Shown: in pieces, positions 18,187 to 63,932 of the stretch | How the letters are laid out: every line of letters starts with the position of its first letter | Numbering within the stretch: position 1 is the first letter of the stretch | Source of the DNA: Thiohalobacter thiocyanaticus | GTDB taxonomy: Bacteria; Pseudomonadota; Gammaproteobacteria; Thiohalobacterales; Thiohalobacteraceae | NCBI RefSeq assembly: GCF_002356355.1 | Contig: NZ_AP018052.1 | Span: 496,001 to 560,000, forward strand | Length of the DNA stretch: 64,000 bases | Direction: 5' to 3' | Notes under the pieces: model-generated | What the model was told of the DNA's origin: nothing | The model's database searches: none | What the model saw: only the letters and a program-made list of their open reading frames with translations | Translations under genes and position numbers: made by a program

Positions 18187-20136
18187 TCAGCGCTTCAACA
18201 GCAGCGATGTCAGTTCCGCTGCCGGCAGCGGCTGGTGGAACAGAAAGCCCTGCGCCCGCTCGCAGCCCAGGCGCAGCAGCAGTTTCTTCTGGGCCTTGGT
18301 TTCCACGCCTTCGATGATCGTGTTCAGGCGCAGGTCGCGCGACAGTGACAGGATGGCGCGCAGGATGGCGACATCACGGGCGTCTTCACAGATGTCACGG
18401 GTGAAGGTGCGGTCGATTTTCAGCGTGTTGAAGGGCAGGCGTTTGAGATAGCTGAGCGACGAGTAGCCGATGCCGAAATCGTCGATGGCGATGGATACGC
18501 CCAGATCGCGCAGCTGCCACAGCTTGTCGGTGGCCTCGTCCATGTCCTCCAGGAATACCTGTTCCGTGATCTCCAGCTCCAGCTGTGCCGGGTTGATGCC
18601 GGATTCGCCGATGATGCCCTGGATCTGATCGACGAAGCCGGGTACGGCGAACTGGCGCCCCGATATATTCACCGACAGCGGCAGCCGGATGCCCGCGCGC
18701 TGCCACTCCAGGATCTGGCTGCAGGCCTGACTGAGGATGCTGCGACCGAGCTGATCGATCAGGCCGGTTTCTTCGGCCACCGGAATGAACTCGGCCGGTG
18801 ATATCAGCCCGCGGTCGTGCGACTGCCAGCGTGCCAGGGCCTCGGCGCCGACGATCCGGCCGCTGTGCATGTCCACCTGCGGCTGGTAGTGAGCAATGAA
18901 CTCGTTTTCCTTGAGCCCGCGACGGATGCGGTTCTCGGTGCTGACAAAGGCAGCGATGTTGTCGATCAACTCCTCGCTGTAGAGCGCGATGCGGGTGTGT
19001 CGCGACTGCTTGGCGCGATACATGGCGGCATCGGCGTTGCGGATCAGGGTGGCGGCGTCCTGTCCATCGTAGGGGTAGAGCGTCACGCCCACGCCGCCGC
19101 TGATGTAGAGTTCCTTGTCATCCAGGATGAAGGGGCGCTCGATGCTGTCGAGCAGGTGAGCGGCATAGTCGACCGCCGTTTTCGGGCTGTCCACGTCAGG
19201 TACCAGTACCACCAGTTCGTCGCCGCCGAAGCGGGAAATGGTGGCCCGGTTTTCACAGCAGCGCCGCAGGCGGTCGGCCAGTTTGACCAGCAGCTGGTCG
19301 CCCAACTCATGGCCGTAGCTGTCGTTGATGTGCTTGAACCGGTCCAGATCCAGGAACAGTACCGCGAAGCGGTTTTCGGCAGCCGGGTATTTGCGCATCA
19401 GCTGCTCGATCTCACCGTTCAGTGCGCGCCGGTTGGGCAGGTCGGTGAGCGGGTCGTAATAGGCCATGCGTTCGATCCGCGCTTCGAATTGCTTGCGTTC
19501 GGTGATGTCGATGTTGGTCGCGCGGATGCCGATCAGTCGGCCGGCGGCATCATGGACCGGGCCGCAGATGTGCTGAAACCAGACAGTGTGGCCATCCTTG
19601 TGGATCAGCCGCAGGTCGATGTTGTCGCTCTGCCTGTTCGTGCCGAGGTTGGCCAGGTGCTGCTGCCAGCGTTCCCGATCCTGGGGGTGGATCAGTTCCG
19701 ACATCAGTTCCGGCTTGGCGTAGAATTCATCCGGCCGGTAACCGGTCAGCTGCACACTCGAAGGCGAGGCATATTCATAGTGCCCGTCCCGGGAGCAGAA
19801 ATAGGTGAATTCCTGGCCCACATCGGCCACGGCGCGGAAGCGGGCGTTTTCGCGCTGCAACTGGGTCTTGAGCAGGCTGACCCGGGCCAGCAGGAAGGCG
19901 ATGACCAGGGCGACCAGTGCGGGAATGACGAACAGCTGCGGTTGGAAGGATTCGTAGACGACCGCCATCTGCAGCAGCGCGGCGCTGCCGACCAGCAGGA
20001 AGGCGATGCCGGCATTGCGCAGATACAGGCTCTGGGGCCTGCGGTTGGAGGCCGCGTCCAGGTAGATGGTGTCCTGGTCGGGGGCTGGGACGCGCGCGTA
20101 GGCGCCGCCGTCACCGGAGGTGTCGGTATCATTCAT
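18187..20136 (-). CDS. Membrane PAS-GGDEF-EAL cyclic di-GMP protein
   Basis: The 649-residue protein has two transmembrane segments (about 41-62 and 68-85), a PAS domain (100-215), a GGDEF domain with intact active site GGDEL (304-308) and an EAL domain with intact AEAL (431-434) plus later DDFGIGYSS and QGFLFHQPL. It could both make and degrade cyclic di-GMP. The PAS domain probably senses a cytoplasmic or membrane redox cue, but no cofactor residue can be assigned. It is a single-gene unit convergent with the methyltransferase. Confidence 0.93.
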   Translation of the reverse strand: MNDTDTSGDGGAYARVPAPDQDTIYLDAASNRRPQSLYLRNAGIAFLLVGSAALLQMAVVYESFQPQLFVIPALVALVIAFLLARVSLLKTQLQRENARFRAVADVGQEFTYFCSRDGHYEYASPSSVQLTGYRPDEFYAKPELMSELIHPQDRERWQQHLANLGTNRQSDNIDLRLIHKDGHTVWFQHICGPVHDAAGRLIGIRATNIDITERKQFEARIERMAYYDPLTDLPNRRALNGEIEQLMRKYPAAENRFAVLFLDLDRFKHINDSYGHELGDQLLVKLADRLRRCCENRATISRFGGDELVVLVPDVDSPKTAVDYAAHLLDSIERPFILDDKELYISGGVGVTLYPYDGQDAATLIRNADAAMYRAKQSRHTRIALYSEELIDNIAAFVSTENRIRRGLKENEFIAHYQPQVDMHSGRIVGAEALARWQSHDRGLISPAEFIPVAEETGLIDQLGRSILSQACSQILEWQRAGIRLPLSVNISGRQFAVPGFVDQIQGIIGESGINPAQLELEITEQVFLEDMDEATDKLWQLRDLGVSIAIDDFGIGYSSLSYLKRLPFNTLKIDRTFTRDICEDARDVAILRAILSLSRDLRLNTIIEGVETKAQKKLLLRLGCERAQGFLFHQPLPAAELTSLLLKR

Positions 20137-50918: not shown

Positions 50919-51437
50919 TCAGAATCCTCCGTTCCGGACCGTTTCGGCCACATCGCGCAGATCCCGGTCGAACTCTTTCAATACTGCGCGCGCGGGATCG
51001 GAGAGATGCTCTTGGCCAAGCGTATCGCCGATGAACTTCGGACGCAGGATGAGCAGCCTTACCCCGTCCTGCTCCCCGAATATGGCCGCGCGCAGCGGTG
51101 CGAACAGCTCGAAGCGTTTGTCCGATGTTGTGACCAGGTAGGCCTTGGAAAGGTTGATGAATTCAACGAGCACAATTGGTTCGGCCTCAATGCCGCGGTT
51201 TTCGAGTGCCCGCTGAACGTCAAGGATATTGACGATGGTGTAGTTGCGTCCCTCCAGGGCGGAGACGAAACTGTCCTTAACGGAGGTGATATCATCGTCC
51301 ATCGTGGCGCTGTATGCCAGCTGTGTGACCTGAATGCCTGTGCCGGGCGTTTCCTGGGCGACAGCAGTGGTGACTGTAGTTGCACCCAGCAGTGTCGCCC
51401 AAAGCAGTCGTGCCGCAGAGTCATGAATATCACGCAT
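50919..51437 (-). CDS. Secreted DUF302 protein under a sigma-54 promoter
   Basis: The 172-residue protein has a signal peptide (RLLWATLLGATTVTTAVA) and a DUF302-like core (VKDSFVSALEGRNYTIVNILDVQRALENRG, then PIVLVEFINLSKAYLVTTSDKRFELFAPLRAAIFGE). It is therefore a periplasmic relative of the cytoplasmic DUF302 protein at 44544. The ATG at 51437 gives the best signal peptide. A near-perfect sigma-54 promoter lies at 51540-51555 upstream. The gene heads a possible two-gene transcript with the sigma-factor-like gene. Confidence 0.8.
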   Translation of the reverse strand: MRDIHDSAARLLWATLLGATTVTTAVAQETPGTGIQVTQLAYSATMDDDITSVKDSFVSALEGRNYTIVNILDVQRALENRGIEAEPIVLVEFINLSKAYLVTTSDKRFELFAPLRAAIFGEQDGVRLLILRPKFIGDTLGQEHLSDPARAVLKEFDRDLRDVAETVRNGGF

Positions 51438-51539
51438 CGCTCGGCGCAATATGCGTCCACTCCTGTGGAGGGATGTCGGAAATGAGCCGGCTTCTGTCTG
51501 CACTGCGGTATGCCTCCTTCTGCGAAGTGTTTGGCTAAT

Positions 51540-51555
51540 AGCAACATCTGTGCCA
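51540..51555 (-). promoter_or_regulatory. Sigma-54 promoter of the secreted DUF302 gene
   Basis: On the minus strand the site reads TGGCACAGATGTTGCT, which fits the sigma-54 consensus TGGCAYR-N4-TTGCW completely. The distance from the -12 element to the DUF302 ATG at 51437 gives a leader of about 90 bases. The GNTTC-N5-GNAAC dyad lies upstream at 51610-51624. Confidence 0.8.
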
Positions 51556-51609: not shown

Positions 51610-51624
51610 GTTTCCAGATGGAAC
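51610..51624. promoter_or_regulatory. Enhancer-like dyad GTTTC-N5-GGAAC
   Basis: GTTTCCAGATGGAAC is an inverted repeat of the GNTTC-N5-GNAAC type seen before the other sigma-54 promoters of this cluster (53528, 63054, 63089). It lies about 60-80 bases upstream of the -12/-24 element, a normal place for an NtrC-type activator site. Confidence 0.6.
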
Positions 51625-51836
51625 ATCTGCAGGCGTATGTATGTTGGTTCGGAACAGGTGAGCGGGCTTGCGGCTTCAGGTATAACGGAAGCTGACAGTT
51701 GATATGGCTGTTCTCCCTGCTTTTGAGCAACCACCATGGCTGTGACGCCAACCTTCAGGATCTGTACAAAGTCAAATCGATCACGCGCGTGTGACCGGAG
51801 TGAGGCGGTTGCGGCGGCGGGGGGGGGGGTGAAGGC

Positions 51837-52101: not shown

Positions 52102-53384
52102 TCAGAAACTGAAGTCGGCCATGACCCAGAACTTGCGCGTGTCGGTGCTCTGCACCGGGTTGCGTGCGCTGTTGGTGGCGTTGTCGTCGGCCGAGTAGTC
52201 CGCGTACTTGGCGACCACCTTCAACTGCTTGCTGATCGGCTTGACCGCCAGCAGGTTCCACTCCGTGCCGTAATCATAGTCGTCGTTGTCGCTGGAGTAG
52301 TCGTGATACCTGGCGACCAGCTTGATCCCGGCGAGTTTCCCGCTGATATGCACCCGGGTGTCGACCAGGCCGTCGGGCAGGCCGTTGGGAGACAGGGCGC
52401 TGGCCAGGAACTGGTCGGCCCAGCCGTTGTGTGCATGCACCGTGGCCAGCGGCGTGGTGAGGCTGTAGGTGCCGTTGCCGCTCAACTGCTCCTGGCTTAC
52501 CTTGACCGTGATTCCGTTGAATTTCACGCCCGCGCTCAGCCAGTAGTAGTCGGCATCACGCGCCCGGCCGTCGGCGTAGTCGTCCTGTTCGGCGTATTCG
52601 GCGGTATACAGCAGCTTCAGGTCATCGTTCAGCGGATAGCCGCCGCTCAGGCGCGCGCCCAGGGTGCGGGTGGACAGGGCCTGGCTGGCCTGGTCCTCGA
52701 ATTCCAGGAAGTAGCCGTAGCCCGCCAGGTTGACGTGCGGCAGGCCGCTGTAGGCGAGGTGAACGATGTGGCTGTCCATGTCCCAGTCGTCCAGGGTCGG
52801 GTGTTCCTCGCCGAACAGCCGGTTGACATTGTCCACGTACGCATAGAACACCTCCAGCCCGGTCAGTGACTGGTTGGTCAGGCTGAACGCGTCCATGGTC
52901 ACCGAGTTCTGGCGCCAGCCGACCGGGCCCACCCAGCGTTCGTTATCGAGACTGATGTACTGACGGCCGAGTTGCAGCCGGGTGTCGGCGATGCCGGTAT
53001 AGGCCAGGATGGCCTGGTTGAGCTCGGTGGATTCCGGGTCGGGCACCAGGGGATAGCGTGCCTTGCCGTTGGTGGTGCTGTTGAACTTCTCGCTGCCCAG
53101 GCTTCTGACGTCCTCGAATTCAAGCTGACCCTCGAAACCGTTCAGATTGGCGGTGCGGTAACCCAGCCGGGTGCGCAGAGTGAAGGCGTTGGCCTCCTTG
53201 CCCAGACTCTGTTCATCGACATATTCATAACGCGGGCGAATCTACCATAGACGCTGCCGTGGGTGATTGCCTCTGTCAGGCTTGCGGCCTGCGGCTGCGG
53301 TCCGGCTGCGGCGGTGCCGGCGGCCATGAGGATGCCCGTTCCGGCCAGGGATAGCAGTCGGTGGATGTTGTTGTTATCGGCCAT
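52102..53384 (-). pseudogene. Outer membrane beta-barrel porin, broken by an apparent one-base deletion
   Basis: The frame from 52102 up to about 53241 encodes a barrel: RYEYVDEQSLGKEANAFTLRTRLGYRTANLNGFEGQLEFEDV, LQLGRQYISLDNERWVG and a C-terminal KFWVMADFSF with terminal Phe. Its N-terminal end stops at an in-frame TAG at 53242. The signal peptide and SLTEAITHGSVYGRF are in another frame starting at the ATG 53384. Restoring one base near 53234-53240 (TTCGCCCGC to TTCCGCCCGC) joins them into one about 425-residue porin of the alginate-export/OprD-like kind. It may be a real frameshift or an assembly error. A sigma-54 promoter lies upstream. Confidence 0.8.
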
Positions 53385-53448
53385 ATTGTCCATTCCTCTC
53401 GATTCGGTGTTTTCCGGTGGGGTGGTAATCGCAATCGTGACGGGCATG

Positions 53449-53464
53449 AGCAATGCCTGTGCCA
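53449..53464 (-). promoter_or_regulatory. Sigma-54 promoter of the porin gene
   Basis: On the minus strand the site reads TGGCACAGGCATTGCT, a full match to TGGCAYR-N4-TTGCW. The expected leader to the porin ATG at 53384 is about 50 bases. Confidence 0.82.
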
Positions 53465-53527
53465 GTGTGCCCAGTGGGTGAAAATGCGCGGGCCTGTGCG
53501 TGTATCGGCGGACGGCTGCAGTTCAGC

Positions 53528-53542
53528 GTTTCAGAACGAAAC
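53528..53542. promoter_or_regulatory. Enhancer-like dyad between divergent sigma-54 promoters
   Basis: GTTTCAGAACGAAAC is a perfect GTTTC/GAAAC inverted repeat about 65-80 bases from each of the two flanking sigma-54 promoters. The same pattern occurs at 51610, 63054 and 63089. Confidence 0.65.
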
Positions 53543-53608
53543 GAAAAGTTGAAACGCTCTGCTGCGGTGAAACAGGTATTTCCCGCAGTCGCGCCGTTTC
53601 ATCCCGTG

Positions 53609-53624
53609 GCATGCATGTTGCTAT
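53609..53624 (+). promoter_or_regulatory. Sigma-54 promoter of the RND efflux operon
   Basis: TGGCATGCATGTTGCT matches the sigma-54 consensus TGGCAYR-N4-TTGCW fully. The leader to the first ATG at 53678 is about 40 bases. Confidence 0.85.
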
Positions 53625-53677
53625 CGCCTGAATAGAGGTTAAGGCGTGCAACTGGGAACACGGGTCCGGGAGCGAAT

Positions 53678-54547
53678 ATGTCTGCAACAGGCTTTGTCAC
53701 ACGGGTATTGCTGCTGTTCTGGTGGATGGCGGCAGGTGTGTATGCGCACAGCGACGCCAGCGGCTTCGCCGACGAGATGTCGCGCTTCGGCGCCGGCGCT
53801 GAGGCGCAGGGACCGCGGCGCTATGCAGCACAGGTGCGGATCGACCCGCGCGAGATCGCGGGCGTGGTGCTCAAGGTCAATGCCCGCATCGTGGATTTGA
53901 ACGATCTCTACATCGGTCGACCCGTGCGCGCGGGCGAGGTGCTGGCCGAATATGAAAGCGCCGAGCTGGAAACGGTGCAGCGTTCCTACGCCGAGACCTA
54001 CGCCAACATGGAGTACATCCGCGAGATCAGCGTCACCGCCGAGGAGAAGCTGATCGAGGGCCGGATGAACCTGCAGTGGCGCGGCCTGTATCCCGAGGAC
54101 ATCGAGCGGCTCGAACAGGAGCGTGAACCGGTCAAGCGGCTGCGAGTGAAGGCGCCGCGTGACGGCTACCTGCTGGACGTCAACGTCACCGAGGGCCAGG
54201 TGGTCAATCCCGGCGCCCAGGCCGGCCTGTTCAATCTCAGCGGCACCACCCTGATGCGCATCGCCAGCGACCAGGCGGTGACGATCGACGTCGAACTGCC
54301 CCTGGAGGTCGCCGCGCGGCTCTCGACCGGCGATGCCGCCTGGCTGTATCCGTCGCCATCGTCGCCGCCGCTGGAGGCCAGTGTCTCCGAGGTGGTGCCC
54401 CTGGTGGGCGGCACGGGGTTGCGGCGCACCGTGCGGCTGGAGCCGCTGGCCAGCGCGCGCCTGCTGGGCCTGCGTGACGGCCAGCGGCTCAGCGTGTCCC
54501 TGCAGCCCGAACAGACGCAGCAGGAGGAGGCCGGACATGCGCATTGA
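53678..54547 (+). CDS. First RND periplasmic adaptor (short form)
   Basis: The 289-residue protein has a signal peptide ending near GVYAHSDASGFAD, an adaptor-type barrel-sandwich/lipoyl region (ARIVDLNDLYIGRPVRAGEVLAEYESAELETVQRSYAETYANM and VKAPRDGYLLDVNVTEGQVV) and a beta-barrel part. It ends in a His residue (GHAH). It shares the mature start AHSDASGFA with the adaptor encoded next to it (AHSDATGFA), so the two are paralogues. Its stop overlaps the second adaptor gene by 11 bases. Confidence 0.8.
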   Translation: MSATGFVTRVLLLFWWMAAGVYAHSDASGFADEMSRFGAGAEAQGPRRYAAQVRIDPREIAGVVLKVNARIVDLNDLYIGRPVRAGEVLAEYESAELETVQRSYAETYANMEYIREISVTAEEKLIEGRMNLQWRGLYPEDIERLEQEREPVKRLRVKAPRDGYLLDVNVTEGQVVNPGAQAGLFNLSGTTLMRIASDQAVTIDVELPLEVAARLSTGDAAWLYPSPSSPPLEASVSEVVPLVGGTGLRRTVRLEPLASARLLGLRDGQRLSVSLQPEQTQQEEAGHAH

Positions 54548-55676
54548 AGCCCTGATATTCGCCGTCGCCCTGACACTGCCGGGCCTGGTTCAGGCGCATT
54601 CGGACGCCACCGGCTTTGCCGAACAGGATGAGCATGAACACGCCGATCAACCGGCCGCGCCCGGCGCCATCGAGGTCGACAGCAGCCTGATCCGCGTTGC
54701 CGAGGTCGAGCGGCGCGAACTGCAGGACCGGCGCGCCGGCATCGGCACGGTGGTCACCCCGGCCAATTCCACCCACGACATCAATTCCTTCATCAGCGGC
54801 CAGGTGATCGAGATCCATGTGCGTCCGGGCAGCCGGGTGAGCGAGGGCGATCCCATCGCCCTGATCCAGAGTCCGGAGTTCGTGCTCACCCAGAAGGCCT
54901 ATGTCGCCCTGCTGGGCAACGACGAGAAGCTCGCGATCCTGGAGGGCGAGGGCCGGCTTGGCAACTACATGGAGGATGCGCGCGAGAACCTGCGCTGGTG
55001 GGGGCTGACCGAGGAGGAGATCTTCGCCCTGGAACAGACCGGCATCCCGTTGGAAGGGATCGCGGTGCGGGCGCCGAGTGACGGCCTGATCACCGAGATA
55101 CTGGTCCAGCCGGGCGAACTGCTCAACGCCGGCGACCGCAATATGGCCAACTTCGTGGTGATGGGACAGGCGCTGGCCCGCATCGTGCCGGACGCCCGCT
55201 CCCTGTGGCTGGAAACCCTGATCTTCCCCGACGCGGCCGCCGGCGTGCGGCCCGGCGACGCCCGGCTGCAGGTGCAGCTGCCGGACGGCAGCCTGATCGA
55301 GGAGGCAGTGGAGGCGGTCTCACCCTCGCTGGATCCCCAGCGCCAGCTGGTGCGGCTCATGACCCGGCTCGAGACGCGCACGGGGCTGTTTCCCGGGCAA
55401 CCGCTGCAGGTCGAACTGCTGGTGCCGCGCTGGGAAGAGACCTGGCTGCCGCGCGCGGCGCTGATGCGCCAGGGCTTCGAGTCGGTCGTATTCGTGGAAC
55501 TGGAACCCGGCCGTTATGAGCGCCGCAGCGTGGAACCGGGGCCGGCGGTGGGCGACTGGGTCCCGGTGGACGGCCTGGAGACGGGCGCCCGGGTCGTGAC
55601 CCACGGCAAGATGGCGCTGGAAGGCGCCTATCGACTGCAGCGCGCCGGTGTCCCGGCCGACGACCACCATCACTGA
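54537..55676 (+). CDS. Second RND periplasmic adaptor, heavy-metal-efflux type
   Basis: The 379-residue protein has a signal peptide (RIEALIFAVALTLPGLVQA), a His-rich acidic linker (EQDEHEHADQ), then a membrane-fusion-protein fold with ISGQVIEIHVRPGSRVSEGDPIALIQSPEF and APSDGLITEILVQPGELLNAGD, and ends DDHHH. The His patches suggest divalent metal contact. It directly follows the first adaptor and precedes the RND pump by 13 bases, so all three are one operon. Confidence 0.88.
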   Translation: MRIEALIFAVALTLPGLVQAHSDATGFAEQDEHEHADQPAAPGAIEVDSSLIRVAEVERRELQDRRAGIGTVVTPANSTHDINSFISGQVIEIHVRPGSRVSEGDPIALIQSPEFVLTQKAYVALLGNDEKLAILEGEGRLGNYMEDARENLRWWGLTEEEIFALEQTGIPLEGIAVRAPSDGLITEILVQPGELLNAGDRNMANFVVMGQALARIVPDARSLWLETLIFPDAAAGVRPGDARLQVQLPDGSLIEEAVEAVSPSLDPQRQLVRLMTRLETRTGLFPGQPLQVELLVPRWEETWLPRAALMRQGFESVVFVELEPGRYERRSVEPGPAVGDWVPVDGLETGARVVTHGKMALEGAYRLQRAGVPADDHHH

Positions 55677-55689
55677 GCGAGGAGGCAAG

Positions 55690-58600
55690 ATGTTCGACTG
55701 GATCATTTCCGGGGCGCTGCGTAATCGGGTCGTCGTCGTCCTGCTGTATATCGTGCTGGCGGTGGCCTCGCTGTTCGCGCTGAGCCGCATGGTGGTGGAC
55801 GTGTTCCCGGAATTCGCGCCGCCGCAGGTGCAGATTCAGACCGAGGCCCCGGGCTTTGCCGCGCAGGACGTGGAGTTGCTGGTCACCCGGCCGCTGGAGG
55901 TGGCGCTGCAGGGTATGCCCAATGTCGACCAGATCCGTTCCAACTCCTCCATCGGACTGTCGCGCATCACCATCGTGTTCGACCCCGACGTCGACATCTA
56001 CAACGCCCGGGTGCTGGCCCAGGAGCGGCTGCAGCTGGCGCGCGGCACCCTGCCGGCGAATGTGCAGGAACCGGAACTGATGCCGGTGACCTCCGCCATC
56101 AGCTGGCTGCTCAAGTTCGCTCTGATCGACTGGTCCGACCGGGATCGCAGCTACGAGCTGCGCAGCCTGGTCGATTGGGAATTCCGCAACCGGCTGCTGG
56201 CGCAGGAGGGCGTGGCCTCGGTGGTCGCGGTCGGCGGCGAGGTCAAGCAGTACCAGGTGCAGGTCGACCCCGCGGCCCTGATGCGGCTGGGCCTGCCCTT
56301 CAGTCTGGTGGTCGACGCCGCGCGCGCGGCCAACACAGTCGCCCCCGGCGCCTTCCTGTATCCCACCCCGGAGGAGGAATACTTCCTGCGCAGCGAGGGC
56401 CGGGTGCGCTCACTGCAGGATATCGCCCGCAGCAGCCTGGGTCTGCCGGGCAACAGCCCGCTGACCCTGGGCGACGTGGCCGAGGTGCGCTTCGGCGGCG
56501 AGATCAAACGCGGCGACGGCCAGATGTACGGCGGCCCGGCCGTGATCGGCACCGTGTCCAAGCTCTGGGGCAGCGATACCCTGGCCACCACCGGGCGGGT
56601 GGAGCAGACCCTGGACGAACTGGCGGCGACCCTGCCGGAAGGCGTGGAGCTGGTCCCCGACGTATTCCGCCAGGCCAGTTTCATCGAACGCTCCATCGAC
56701 AACCTGGAGGAGGCGCTGCTGCATGCGGCCATCATCGTCGCCCTGGTGTTGTTCCTGTTCCTGGTGCGCTGGCGCCCGACCGTCATCAGCCTGATCGCCA
56801 TCCCCACCTCGCTGATGATGGGCATCCTGGTGCTGTGGCTGCTGGACGTCGGCCTCAACGCCCTCACCCTGGGCGGGCTGGTGTTCGCCATCGGCGAGGT
56901 GGTCGACGACGCCATCATCGACGTGGAGAACATCCTGCGGCGGCTGCGCGAGAACCGCCAGGCACGGCAGCCGCGGCCGTTGCTGGAGATCGTGTTCGAA
57001 GGCTCCAGCGAGATCCGCAACTCGGTGGTCTTCGCCACCTTCATCATCGTGATCGCCTTCATGCCGGTGTTCTTCCTCAGCGATATCGAGGGCCGGGTGT
57101 TCGCGCCGCTGGCCATCGCCTACCTGGCCGCCGTGGCCGGCTCGCTGCTGGTGGCGCTGACCCTGGTGCCGGTGCTGTGCTCCTGGTTCTTCGGTGGCCG
57201 TCAGGCCGAGCAGCAGGCCAGGCTGGGCGGTTTTGCCCGCTGGCTGCAGAACCGCTACCAGGGACTGCTGGAGCGCACCCTGGCCGTGCCGCGGCTGATG
57301 TTCGGCGGCGCGATCGTCGCCTTCGGCCTCAGCCTGGTGCTGATCCTGTCGCTCGGACGTTCCTTCATCCCCGGCTTTCACGAGGGCAATATCGTCATCG
57401 CCATGACCCTGATGCCGGGCACCTCGCTGGAGGAGAGCCTGCGCATCGGCCGCCAGGTGAACAACCTGGTCGGCGCCATGCCCGAGGTGAAGAGCATTGC
57501 CCAGCGCGCCGGCCGCTCGCGTCTGGACGAGGATGCCCAGCCGGTCAACTTCAGCGAGTTCGACGTCACCCTCAAACCGGAGGTGGAGGACGTGCCGGCG
57601 GTGATGGACGCGATCCGCGAACAACTCCGGACCATTCCCGGCGCCTCGATGAACGTGTCCCAGTTCATCACCCACCGCATGCAGGAGATCATGTCCGGCG
57701 TGCGCGCCCAGATGGTGGTCAAGATCTTCGGTCCGGATCTGGACATGCTCGCCCATCTGCAGCAGGAACTGCACGGCGCGGTCGAGGGCGTGAACGGCGT
57801 GGTCGACCTGCAGTCCGAGCCGATGGTGACCGTGCCCGGTGTGGACCTGCGCGTGGACCGGGACGCGGCCGCCGCCTACGGTCTCACGCCGGACGAGGTG
57901 GTGCGTCAGGTCGGCGAGGCGCTCAACGGTGTGGCGGTCTCGCAGGTGCAGGAGCATGACCGCACCTATGATCTGTTCGTGCGCATCGAGGCCGATGCCC
58001 GTGACAGCATTGAGGACCTGGGCCGGCTGCCGCTGCAGGCATCGAGTGATGCCGTGGTGCCGCTGGACACCGTGGCCGAGGTGGTGCCGGTGCGCGAGCC
58101 CTACATGATCAACCGCGACGGCGGCGCCCGCCGGGCGGTGGTGCAGTGGAATGTCGACGGGCGTGATCTGAGCGCGGTGGTCCGGGAGGTGCGCGAGCAA
58201 ATCGCGGAGCAGATGGTGCTGCCGCCGGGTTACTCCATCGAGTACGGCGGCGACTGGGAAGGTCAGCAGCGCGCCACCCGCGACCTGCTGATCTCCGGGG
58301 CCGTGGCGGTGGTGCTGGTGATCGCGGTGCTGCTGCGCGCCTTCCGCAACACCACCCTGGTCGGCCTGATCCTGACCAATCTGCCGTTTGCCCTGATCGG
58401 CGGCGTGTTCGCCCTGGTCATCACCGGCGAGAATCTCAACGTCTCCTCGCTGCTGGGGCTGATCGCCCTGCTCGGCATCGCCACCCGCAACAGCATCCTG
58501 CTGGTGACGCGCTACCAGCGCATCGCCCGCGAGCAGAATGGCTCGACGCCGGAGGCCCTGGCCATGCAGGGGGCGCTGGATCGCATGCTGCCGATCCTGA

Positions 58601-58803
58601 TGACCGCACTGACCACGGCACTGGCGGTGATCCCCTTCCTGGTCGGCGATCCCACCGGCAAGGAACTGCAGCGGCCATTGGCGATTGTCCTGCTGGGCGG
58701 CATGATCAGTTCCACCTTGTTGAATCTGCTGGTTTTACCGTCCGTTTATGCCTGGGCGCTGCGGCGCTGGCCGGGGCGCCTGGCTTACGCCGGCAGGGAC
58801 TGA
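55690..58803 (+). CDS. RND-family inner membrane efflux pump, HME-like
   Basis: The 1037-residue protein has the RND architecture of twelve membrane segments and two periplasmic loops. The fourth membrane segment reads LVFAIGEVVDDAIIDVENILRR, which keeps acidic residues as in heavy-metal pumps but differs from both the CusA (GAMVDAAIVMIEN) and the CzcA patterns. It lacks the CusA three-Met set in the corresponding loop. The substrate is therefore unknown, though the His-rich adaptor suggests a divalent metal or oxyanion. It has no TolC-type gene next to it; the divergent porin could take that role only in theory. Confidence 0.9.
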   Translation: MFDWIISGALRNRVVVVLLYIVLAVASLFALSRMVVDVFPEFAPPQVQIQTEAPGFAAQDVELLVTRPLEVALQGMPNVDQIRSNSSIGLSRITIVFDPDVDIYNARVLAQERLQLARGTLPANVQEPELMPVTSAISWLLKFALIDWSDRDRSYELRSLVDWEFRNRLLAQEGVASVVAVGGEVKQYQVQVDPAALMRLGLPFSLVVDAARAANTVAPGAFLYPTPEEEYFLRSEGRVRSLQDIARSSLGLPGNSPLTLGDVAEVRFGGEIKRGDGQMYGGPAVIGTVSKLWGSDTLATTGRVEQTLDELAATLPEGVELVPDVFRQASFIERSIDNLEEALLHAAIIVALVLFLFLVRWRPTVISLIAIPTSLMMGILVLWLLDVGLNALTLGGLVFAIGEVVDDAIIDVENILRRLRENRQARQPRPLLEIVFEGSSEIRNSVVFATFIIVIAFMPVFFLSDIEGRVFAPLAIAYLAAVAGSLLVALTLVPVLCSWFFGGRQAEQQARLGGFARWLQNRYQGLLERTLAVPRLMFGGAIVAFGLSLVLILSLGRSFIPGFHEGNIVIAMTLMPGTSLEESLRIGRQVNNLVGAMPEVKSIAQRAGRSRLDEDAQPVNFSEFDVTLKPEVEDVPAVMDAIREQLRTIPGASMNVSQFITHRMQEIMSGVRAQMVVKIFGPDLDMLAHLQQELHGAVEGVNGVVDLQSEPMVTVPGVDLRVDRDAAAAYGLTPDEVVRQVGEALNGVAVSQVQEHDRTYDLFVRIEADARDSIEDLGRLPLQASSDAVVPLDTVAEVVPVREPYMINRDGGARRAVVQWNVDGRDLSAVVREVREQIAEQMVLPPGYSIEYGGDWEGQQRATRDLLISGAVAVVLVIAVLLRAFRNTTLVGLILTNLPFALIGGVFALVITGENLNVSSLLGLIALLGIATRNSILLVTRYQRIAREQNGSTPEALAMQGALDRMLPILMTALTTALAVIPFLVGDPTGKELQRPLAIVLLGGMISSTLLNLLVLPSVYAWALRRWPGRLAYAGRD

Positions 58804-58842: not shown

Positions 58843-61502
58843 ATGCAGACGAATCCACAGACTGGTATGAACCTCCTGCCGACAGTCGGTGCCGCCGACC
58901 CGCGCGCGGCCTGCGCCGCGCGCTGGCAGCAGTGGCTGCTCTATGCCTGGGTGGTGGCCCTGGTGGCCATGCCGCTGCTGCTCCACGGGGTGGACAGCGG
59001 TACCCTGCTGGTGCCGGAGTACCTGATCGATGTCCGCATGCATGCGGTCATCGAGTTGTTCTGCGGCATCATGGCGTTGCTGATCGCCGGGCTGATCCTG
59101 GCCCTGTCGCGGCACAAGCAGGAACGGACCCTGCTGCTGTTCGCGCTGGGCTTTCTGGTGATGGGCCTGCTGGACGTGGTGCATGCGATCACGCCTCCGG
59201 ATGTGTACCCGGGGCTGTTCGTTTCCGCCCACACCCTGTCCACCCTGTTCGGCGGCGTCCTGTTCTGTGCGGGCACTGTCCTGCACTATCGCCGCCATCG
59301 CCTGCCGGGATTGCCGCTGTGGCTGTCGCGCGAGGCGGCCTTCACCCTGATGCTGCTGATCGGCCTGGTACTGGCCTATCACATCATCCTGCCTGTGGGC
59401 TCGCTGGAGAATCTCTATACCTTTTCCATCTGGGCCTATCGGGCGCATGAGTTCTCTGGAGTTCTGTATGCCTTCGCCGCGCTGCTGGCCTTTCTCTATT
59501 ACCGGGGGACGGGACAGCGGCTGATCCTGGTCATCGGCGCCATCCTGATGCTGTTCGCCGAGAGCGCCTACCTGTTCCGCTTCTCCCAGATGTGGGACTC
59601 GGCCTGGTGGACCTGGCATTTCGTCAAGGTCGGGTTGTACCTGGGCAGCCTGGTAGTGATCGCTGCCGGCCTGGTGTTGTCGCTGCGCGCCGTGCAGCGC
59701 GCACGCGTGGTGCAGGACAATATCAACCGCCAGCTGCGGGTCGCGCACGACAGGCTCGACGACATGAACCGGGAACTGCAGCTGCGCAACACCATGGTCA
59801 ACGCCAGCATCGGTGCGCGCAGCCTGGATCAGACCCTGGAGGTGATCGAGAACACCCTGGCCGAATTCGTGGGCGAGTGCCGCTACTCGCTGGTGCTGCG
59901 CGTGGCCGAGGACGAGGTCGAGGAATTCCAGCGCGGCCTGCAGCGTCAGACCCTGCGCTGGAACGTGCGCGTCCGGGCCGAGCACATGCCCTGTGTGCGG
60001 CTGGTGCAGGCGGTCGGCGGCGATGACGAGCATACCGTCTACAGCTGCAGCCGCGGCGCCAATGGCCGCGCCTGCATGTGCCTGACGCTGCGCGCCCATG
60101 ACGAGGTGTTCGGCTATCTGCGCCTGGAGATCGCCGGCGGCCATCCCGAACCGGGACGGGTGGAGCAGCTCAACGTGGTCGCCGCCGAGATCGGCCCGAT
60201 TCTGTACAACGCCCTGCTGCATTACCGCTGGACCCAGGCCATCGGATTCCGCGCCGCGCTGCTGCGGGTCACGGCCATGCTGGGCTCGACCCTGGAACTG
60301 CCCCGGGTGCTGGAGGCGGTATGCGGGGAAAGCGCGCACATGCTGGCCAGCGAGGCCTCCGGCATCCTGCTCGCCGACGCTGACGGCGACAGCGGGGAGA
60401 TGCGCCTGGTCAGCTGCTGCATGCCGGACACGGCCGCGGGCGCTGCGGTGGCGCAGCCGGAGTGGATTGCCAGCGCTGCGGGACGTGAGTTGTTCCGTCA
60501 ATTGCGTGAGTCCGGCCGCCCGGTGGCCCTGGTCAAACCGGAGACGGCAGACGCGCCGGCGCCCTTCCCCCTGGGCACCAGCGGCTGCATCTGGGGCGCG
60601 GTGGCCCTGTTCCCCATGCTGGAAGGGGAACAGCTCATCGCGGTCATGCTGATCATGCGCACGGAACGGATCCCGTTCAGCGCGGCCACCCTGGAGCAGG
60701 GCGAACTGCTCGCCGAACAGGTGCGGGTCGCACTGGTCAACGCCCGCGCCTACGAGGCGCTGCGGGACGCCAATGAGCAGCTGCGGCGTTCCGAGCAGGA
60801 ACGCATCCGTGCCGAGCGGCTGGCGGTGCTCGGCCAGATGGCGGCCAGTGTGGCGCACGAGGTGCGCAATCCGCTCAGCGCCATCAACAACTGCCTCGCG
60901 GTGCTGCGCCGCAACATCCACGACAGCAGCGACAGCGTCGGGCCTGCCATCGAGATCATCGACGACGAGGTGCGGCGCCTGGACCGGCTGACGCACAATT
61001 TCATGAGTTTCGGGCGCTCGCCGCGCACGGCGGCGGCACGGGTGCATCTCGGCGGCCTGGTGGCGCGCGTGTGCGAACGCATCGATCAGCATATCCAGCA
61101 CGAGGGGCTGTCGGTCGGGGTGGAGCAGGAAGTCATAGGCGGCTATACGCCGGTGATGTTCGATGCCGACGGTTTTCAGGAAGTGCTGTGGAACCTGATG
61201 CTCAACGCCGTGCAGGCGATGCACGGCAGTGGCCGGCTGCGGGTGCGTCTGAATCAGAATGGCCGCCATGCCTTCCTGGCCGTCGCCGACGACGGCCCCG
61301 GCATCCCGCCAGAGAAGCGGACGCAGATCTTCGAGCCCTTCTTCAGTCAGCGCTCCGAGGGTGCCGGTCTGGGGCTGGCGATCGTACTGCAGCACGTGGA
61401 GGCATGGGGCGGCCGGCTGCGCATCTGGGGACCGCCCGGGGCCTGCTTCGCCATGCGTTTCCCCGTGGCTGAAGCGCAGGTCGCTGACCGGGGAGTGGCG
61501 TC

Positions 61503-61506
<4 letters not shown>
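58843..61506 (+). CDS. Membrane histidine kinase with MASE3-like sensor and GAF domains
   Basis: The 887-residue kinase has an N-terminal array of about seven membrane helices resembling the MASE3 sensor (MHAVIELFCGIMALLIAGLILAL and following helices), a coiled linker, two GAF-like regions (about 340-460 and 470-620) and a kinase core. The phospho-acceptor is His672 in SVAHEVRNPLSAINNC, with N-box LWNLMLNAVQAM and ATP-lid motifs DDGPGIPPEK and GAGLGLAIV. The GAF part holds several cysteines (CSRGANGRACMC). Its stop overlaps the regulator start, forming a classic two-component pair. Confidence 0.9.
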
Positions 61507-62876
<1,370 letters not shown>

Positions 62877-62912
62877 AATCTCCCTCTGCACCGAATGGCA
62901 CTTACTTCAGCC

Positions 62913-62991
62913 GCGTCATCCCCGCGCAGGCGGGGATCCAGTGCCTGGCAGAACCCGCAAATGCTGGATTCCCGCCTGCGCGGGAATGACG
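62913..62991. repeat. Intergenic inverted repeat, family F
   Basis: Arms CGTCATCCCCGCGCAGGCGGGG and CCCGCCTGCGCGGGAATGACG flank about 30 bases. It resembles the copy at 25782-25861, and both carry the extra outer arm GTAAGT-CCATTC on their right side. Confidence 0.82.
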
Positions 62992-63053
62992 GATAGACTG
63001 AAGTCCGGCTTATGTAAGTTCCATTCCCCTCTGCACCCGCTTCCCCGGCGGGT

Positions 63054-63103
63054 GTTTCTTACTGAAACCCGTAGTGCGTTTTCACCTCGGTTCAATCTGA
63101 AAC
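63054..63103. promoter_or_regulatory. Pair of enhancer-like dyads upstream of the redoxin gene
   Basis: GTTTCTTACTGAAAC (63054-63068) and GGTTCAATCTGAAAC (63089-63103) share the GNTTC-N5-GAAAC pattern and are 35 bases apart. They lie 75-125 bases upstream of the sigma-54 promoter at 63177, an ideal spacing for paired NtrC-type dimers. Confidence 0.7.
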
Positions 63104-63176: not shown

Positions 63177-63192
63177 TGGCATGGAACTTGAG
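63177..63192 (+). promoter_or_regulatory. Sigma-54 promoter of the redoxin gene
   Basis: TGGCATGGAACTTGAG matches TGGCAYR-N4-TTG with GA in place of the -12 GC. The leader to the ATG at 63309 is about 105 bases. It is weaker than the other local sigma-54 sites but has two upstream dyads. Confidence 0.65.
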
Positions 63193-63308: not shown

Positions 63309-63932
63309 ATGAAAACATCCAGACATCCGGCCCGGGGCGGTCGGCTGACTGTCGGGTGTTCGGCTGCGGCCGGTGCACTTATGCTCGCACTCGCTGCTCC
63401 GGGCACTGCAGTGGCCGATAGCATCGACGGAAACTTCCCCACGGCCGACGAAGTCGGCGGCGAAGTGTTCCCCAGAGGCGTGCAGGCCGGAGACCGGTTC
63501 CCCACCGACTGGGACATCTACGATGCCAACGGCAACAAGACCGATGTCAGCAAGCTGATCAAGGGCAAGCGCACTGTGCTGGCATTCTTCATCTCCGCGG
63601 TTCCGGTTTCCGTGGATGAGTTGACGAAGCTGCAGAACGCCTTTACCGGCAAGGGTGACACCCAGCTGCTGTTCGTGAATTCCGACCAGGTGGGCGGCAA
63701 GCTGCTGGGCGTGGACCCGATCCAGGAGACGGCCCGCACCGTGCGTGTGATCAAGCGTGAGGAGAACATCAAGCATCCGATGTTCGTCGCGCCCAACGAC
63801 GCCCTGAGCCCGACCGGCCTGTCCAACAAGCTCGGTTTCCGCGGTCTGCCGACGGTGTTCGTCATCGACAAGAACGGCAAGGTGGAAAAAGTCTATGTCG
63901 GACCGCAGGACTGGTCTGATACCAAGGTCTGA
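63309..63932 (+). CDS. Secreted thioredoxin-fold protein lacking the redox cysteines
   Basis: The 207-residue protein has a signal peptide ending near GTAVADSID and a TlpA/redoxin-like fold (KLIKGKRTVLAFFISAVPVSVDELTKLQ ... GLPTVFVIDKNGKVEKVYVG). In the place of WCPPC it has AVPVS (Ala97 to Ser101), so no CxxC exists; the only cysteine (Cys17) is in the signal. It keeps the cis-Pro (GLPTVF). It is therefore a binding fold rather than a disulfide enzyme. GGAGG lies before the ATG. A Tat-signal gene follows 30 bases downstream. Confidence 0.8.
   Translation: MKTSRHPARGGRLTVGCSAAAGALMLALAAPGTAVADSIDGNFPTADEVGGEVFPRGVQAGDRFPTDWDIYDANGNKTDVSKLIKGKRTVLAFFISAVPVSVDELTKLQNAFTGKGDTQLLFVNSDQVGGKLLGVDPIQETARTVRVIKREENIKHPMFVAPNDALSPTGLSNKLGFRGLPTVFVIDKNGKVEKVYVGPQDWSDTKV

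Follow-up and report, generated by a model that had tools for sequence, protein, structure and literature searches.

A predicted divergent sigma-54 control region and a recurring dyad in the thiocyanate dehydrogenase cluster of Thiohalobacter thiocyanaticus

Introduction

The enterobacterial zraP and zraSR (hydHG) genes form divergent sigma-54 units under the control of ZraR (PMC8743547, PMC3844500). A comparable arrangement is described here from a 64,000-nucleotide stretch of the Thiohalobacter thiocyanaticus genome (GCF_002356355.1, contig NZ_AP018052.1, positions 496,001 to 560,000; hereafter the window), in a 293-base gap (53385-53677) between a minus-strand porin-like gene and the plus-strand first adaptor gene of an RND pump operon, within a cluster that also encodes thiocyanate dehydrogenase (TcDH). 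As in zraP/zraSR, two oppositely transcribed sigma-54 units share one spacer and one NtrC-type two-component regulator, predicted in the present case. In zraP/zraSR, however, one unit of the divergent pair consists of the kinase and regulator genes themselves, and the response is to zinc, whereas here the units are the porin-like gene and the pump operon of a thiocyanate cluster, with a different regulator and dyad.

The gene order is that of the TcDH clusters of T. thiocyanaticus HRh1 and Guyparkeria SCN-R1, which comprise two cusB-like genes, a cusA-like gene, a kinase, a sigma-54 activator, a redoxin and TcDH (PMC6504805). The accessible part of that description names the sigma-54 activator and takes the kinase for a putative copper transport protein and the pump for Cus; a term search of it did not find promoters, an enhancer motif or a porin. 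Thioalkalivibrio TcDH clusters also contain a GAF kinase and a sigma-54 regulator but, according to the portions of the descriptions available, carry copCD, fccAB and ABC-transporter genes in place of the pump (PMC5744179, PMC5328954), and the T. thiocyanoxidans cluster, including this pair, is induced on thiocyanate (PMC5744179). Cis elements were not found in those portions, and literature searches combining thiocyanate and sigma-54, which covered papers outside subscription, had no paper on them among the results listed. In the literature consulted, the switching-on of thiocyanate oxidation by TcDH, a process of interest for waste clean-up, is described only in terms of a nearby sigma-54 regulator. 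The gene cluster, its sigma-54 activator and the divergent sigma-54 type of mechanism are already known; the novelty lies not in the type of mechanism but in a map of the cis elements of the TcDH regulon and in counting the porin-like gene among its members.

Architecture and conservation of the predicted control region

The gap is likely to serve as a divergent control region for a regulon of thiocyanate oxidation, in which the adjacent NtrC-type regulator would bind GTTYCA-N3-TGRAAC and, in cells growing on thiocyanate, co-activate the porin-like gene, the pump operon, a DUF302 gene and the redoxin-TcDH genes (Table 1). Both gap promoters match TGGCAYR-N4-TTGCW perfectly, at a GG-to-GC distance of ten bases. 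The minus-strand element lies exactly where the original prediction had placed it, and the plus-strand element exists but sits two bases to the left of the 53609-53624 given there. The two had been described as face-to-face, but their orientation is divergent (back to back), each pointing outward. The expected GTTTC-N5-GAAAC was recovered between them and is equidistant from both predicted starts (-97/-98). A wider dyad with arms GCGTTTCA (53526-53533) and TGAAACGC (53550-53557), also part of the prediction, is present, but its outer GC is not kept in orthologous gaps and was dropped as a meaningful feature after three-species alignment. Only two-mismatch sites resembling those of integration host factor (IHF) occur in the gap, leaving IHF-assisted looping without support.

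The gap was aligned with its counterparts in HRh1 (L020), the closest named genome, and in another genus of the same family (L019/L028). The two sigma-54 elements, the central dyad and two half-sites form conserved blocks at the same spacing amid drifting sequence. In each of the three species the dyad centre lies at -96 to -98 relative to either predicted start, and in the third the dyad reads GTTCC-N5-GGAAC. Loss of the two -24/-12 elements from orthologous gaps, which had been named beforehand as the outcome that would count against the prediction, is not what the alignment gives, as both are kept. Outward sigma-54 promoters with predicted activator sites between them, an arrangement of the zraP/zraSR kind, are thus retained in three species.

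The pattern TGGCAYRN4TTGCW has 10 perfect matches in the 3,233,441-base genome, compared with 1 for the reversed control, and three of the ten fall within about 2 kb at this locus (both gap elements and 51540-51555). From the genome density, approximately 0.001 outward-pointing perfect pairs within 200 bp would be expected. With one mismatch allowed, the sigma-54 count in the 64-kb window is 4 against 2.6 expected in shuffles, which is not significant, and the case therefore rests on the perfect matches and on conservation. The window holds 4 copies of the dyad pattern GTTYC-N5-GRAAC, where shuffles lead one to expect 0.09, and the whole genome has it at 20 places, compared with 2 for the control. 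A dyad lies within 150 bp of three of the ten perfect sigma-54 promoters (p ~1e-6); five other perfect sites (L004-L008) have none nearby, and the 11 dyads examined outside the cluster (5 more were left aside) are all inside open frames of at least 215 codons, with no good sigma-54 element nearby, and were not counted as further regulon members. Helical phasing of the dyad distances (p ~0.007) was assessed post hoc on a hand-picked set, is weak and is not relied on.

Recurrence of the dyad in thiocyanate dehydrogenase clusters

The same dyad precedes four sigma-54 promoters in this cluster and, across six TcDH-positive genomes, 28 dyads were found at 19 promoters, with centres at -85 to -163 and the consensus GTTYCA-N3-TGRAAC. 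These sites have the position of an enhancer, roughly 80-160 bases upstream of the start, and recur at promoters predicted to be co-regulated. The pump, the redoxin-TcDH genes and, where present, the porin-like gene have a dyad promoter across TcDH clusters; for G245, the stretch examined held no such promoter for a pump operon. In a draft genome of the same genus (G001), both dyads and the TTGA-type element precede the redoxin-TcDH genes.

Two other lineages (G181 and G245) have separate dyads and a separate promoter for the porin-like gene at a distance from the pump, which suggests that this gene truly belongs to the regulon. The original proposal that one enhancer set drives porin and pump is supported in its placement, but the co-regulation appears wider, extending to the DUF302 and redoxin-TcDH genes. 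The accompanying idea of a porin-pump link across the envelope finds no support as a physical partnership, given the weak match of the porin-like protein to the Alginate_exp family and the distance of its promoter from the pump in these two lineages.

The dyad-plus-promoter module was present in 5 of 369 Gammaproteobacteria, four of them among the six TcDH genomes (overlap p ~1e-7, as a measure of specificity), and the reversed control of the pattern gave zero. The one other genome with the module among approximately 363 (G054) has a single match in AT-rich sequence, which is probably due to chance, and G004 was missed by the pattern because its dyads begin GTTCC. The TcDH loci of G255, G545 and Methylocella, which gave no kinase/regulator pair in the vicinity of the TcDH gene, showed no module. 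Further hold-out TcDH genomes were sought among the relatives of G181 at family level and of G245 at order level, and none that were new turned up. As the central dyad recurs ahead of the neighbouring TcDH genes and in related bacteria, it is very probably part of the on-switch for thiocyanate breakdown.

In G167 (L029 14592-14906), a dyad-plus-sigma-54 promoter occurs in a second copy ahead of a 58-codon TcDH fragment, behind which come genes for hypothetical and pentapeptide-repeat proteins. The similarity of this copy to the promoter preceding the first adaptor gene suggests promoter duplication.

Predicted regulator, possible signals and alternative explanations

The genome encodes rpoN (Sigma54_DBD, 2.7e-71), and the adjacent regulator combines a receiver (PF00072), an AAA+ domain (PF00158) with a GSFTGA loop of the GAFTGA type and a Fis-type helix-turn-helix (PF02954), the recognition region of which is nearly identical across TcDH clusters. 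Following the course established for NtrC-type activators, sigma-54 RNA polymerase would sit closed at both outward-pointing -24/-12 promoters until the membrane kinase senses a signal, either thiocyanate or a consequence such as copper demand, and phosphorylates the regulator (61503-62876). The regulator would assemble on GTTYCA-N3-TGRAAC at the midpoint (53528-53542), with the half-sites at 53550 and 53568 probably helping, and DNA looping and ATP hydrolysis would open both promoters, so that porin-like protein and RND pump would both be made. At the dyads preceding the DUF302 gene and the redoxin-TcDH genes, this regulator would act as well.

In the membrane part of the kinase (58843-59800), His67, Cys74, Met107, His114, His130, Glu240 and His259 are invariant in six TcDH-linked kinases and form a candidate metal or anion sensor site; these His, Cys and Met residues are compatible with either copper or thiocyanate as the signal. 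A more specific version can be put forward only tentatively: a thiocyanate-responsive sigma-54 regulon with GTTYCA-N3-TGRAAC as its own enhancer code, in which the symmetric midpoint enhancer would simultaneously fire an outer-membrane porin that lets thiocyanate in and an RND pump that does not handle copper, and the kinase would sense thiocyanate itself through conserved membrane-embedded His, Cys and Met.

Several points weigh against control of the regulon by the adjacent regulator through this dyad. The DNA-binding helix GIGRTTLWRK is like those of many NtrC-type regulators, so that its specificity for the motif is only putative. The redoxin-TcDH promoter has TTGA rather than TTGC; TTGA is kept in the Thiohalobacter family, while three other genera have TTGC in the orthologous promoter. 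The four TcDH genomes in which the module pattern was found are also those from which it had been built, and the overlap is thus no independent test. Finally, the porin-like gene is frameshifted in this assembly, which may be either a sequencing or assembly error or a recent real inactivation.

It is also conceivable, though unlikely, that the promoters are real sigma-54 promoters and the dyads are bound by another activator from a different locus, perhaps one that responds to copper or sulfur, with the adjacent pair controlling something else. Sulfur oxidisers carry several NtrC-type regulators, 11 in T. thiocyanoxidans (PMC5744179), and binding of the adjacent regulator to the dyad is itself a prediction; nevertheless, the dyad tracks that regulator, occurring in each of the six genomes with the regulator in their TcDH cluster and missing from TcDH loci without it. 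The equidistance of the dyad from both promoters in three species, together with the separate dyad copies that accompany the porin-like gene in G181 and G245, makes separate control of the two promoters very unlikely. In that arrangement the dyad would mainly serve the pump side, on which the two extra conserved half-sites are found, and the porin would be driven by another activator or only incidentally. Chance matches in a G+C-rich gap, with which the one-mismatch count in the window would agree, are effectively excluded by conservation across two genera, and the perfect matches, the rarity of divergent pairs and the recurrence at functionally linked genes likewise argue against them.

With control by the adjacent regulator as the preferred reading, promoters and a specific enhancer motif can be assigned to the TcDH system, together with a regulon that spans several genera, is open to testing and takes in the porin-like gene. 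What the kinase/regulator pair controls and senses becomes addressable at named sites.

The pump permease

The permease, of HME type, belongs to the CusA/CzcA family, with 780.4 bits to TIGR00914 against a cut-off of 701.45. The three-methionine Cu(I)/Ag(I) site of CusA, M573, M623 and M672 (numbers that agree with the alignment), is replaced by Ala, Phe and Glu. In all five TcDH-cluster permeases compared, methionine is missing from the triad positions, and a canonical CusA in G245 keeps all three. Because the triad is absent, the name Cus may be a misnomer for the TcDH-cluster pump, which on alignment is a distinct, perhaps non-copper HME pump, and the copper role of this neighbour of TcDH is called into question. 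One permease helix carries GEVVDDAIIDVEN where CusA carries GAMVDAAIVMIEN.

Gene cluster around the predicted control region

To the right of the gap, the order is two adaptors, permease, kinase and NtrC-type regulator, then a further gap with two dyads and a promoter, and then redoxin and TcDH. Residues 36-487 of TcDH match solved thiocyanate dehydrogenases over the whole propeller (1.6e-81), TAT_signal was found, and the first 197 residues are 97% identical to the HRh1 orthologue. The active-site residues of HRh1 TcDH are reported to be complete (PMC6504805).

Table 1. Coordinates of genes and predicted regulatory elements in the window
Feature	Position	Strand	Remarks
DUF302 protein gene	50919-51441	-	PF03625 at 4e-05; 83% identical in HRh1; probable start ~51441
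Sigma-54 element TGGCACAGATGTTGCT, upstream of DUF302 gene	51540-51555	-	Perfect consensus; TGGCACAGATGTTGCC in HRh1
Candidate enhancer dyad, upstream of DUF302 gene	51610-51624		Centre -88
Porin-like (Alginate_exp-like) gene	52102-53393	-	One base missing at 53244/53245 relative to HRh1, frame broken
Sigma-54 -24/-12 element TGGCACAGGCATTGCT, porin-like gene	53449-53464	-	Perfect consensus; kept in three species; predicted start ~53438
Central candidate enhancer dyad GTTTC-AGAAC-GAAAC	53528-53542		Same place in three species
TGAAAC half-site	53550-53555		22 bases from dyad start; conserved; right arm of wider dyad
TGAAAC half-site	53568-53573		18 bases beyond 53550 half-site; TGGAAC in HRh1
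Sigma-54 -24/-12 element TGGCATGCATGTTGCT, pump operon	53607-53622	+	Perfect consensus; kept in three species; predicted start ~53633
Adaptor 1 (HlyD/CusB-like)	53678-54547	+	PF16576 1e-19
Adaptor 2 (HlyD/CusB-like)	54531-55676	+	PF16576 1e-23
HME-type RND permease (CusA/CzcA family)	55648-58803	+	TIGR00914; alignment to CusA
Membrane GAF histidine kinase	58843-61506	+	HATPase_c, HisKA, GAF, weak MASE3
NtrC-type response regulator, likely activator	61503-62876	+	Response_reg, Sigma54_activat, HTH_8
Candidate enhancer dyad, upstream of redoxin-TcDH	63054-63068		Centre -142; same spacing in three species
Second dyad, upstream of redoxin-TcDH	63089-63103		Centre -107; one mismatch
Near-consensus sigma-54 element TGGCATGGAACTTGAG, upstream of redoxin-TcDH	63177-63192	+	TTGA variant
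Redoxin gene	63309-63932	+	PF08534
Thiocyanate dehydrogenase (TcDH) gene	63963 to beyond window end	+	Solved TcDH structures matched; Tat signal

The porin-like protein has no meaningful match among solved structures, and an intact-frame paralogue of its gene, 47% identical, is present at G000:C1:978450-979640. A run of approximately ten G at 51819-51829 falls in the gap that separates the porin-like gene from the DUF302 promoter. Between the regulator and redoxin genes, a repeat-like inverted sequence, CATCCCCGCGCAGGCGGGGATCC ... GGATTCCCGCCTGCGCGGGAATGACG, lies at 62910-63000, and the inverted repeat-like element found at the corresponding place in HRh1 (L020 ~19237-19320) is a different one.
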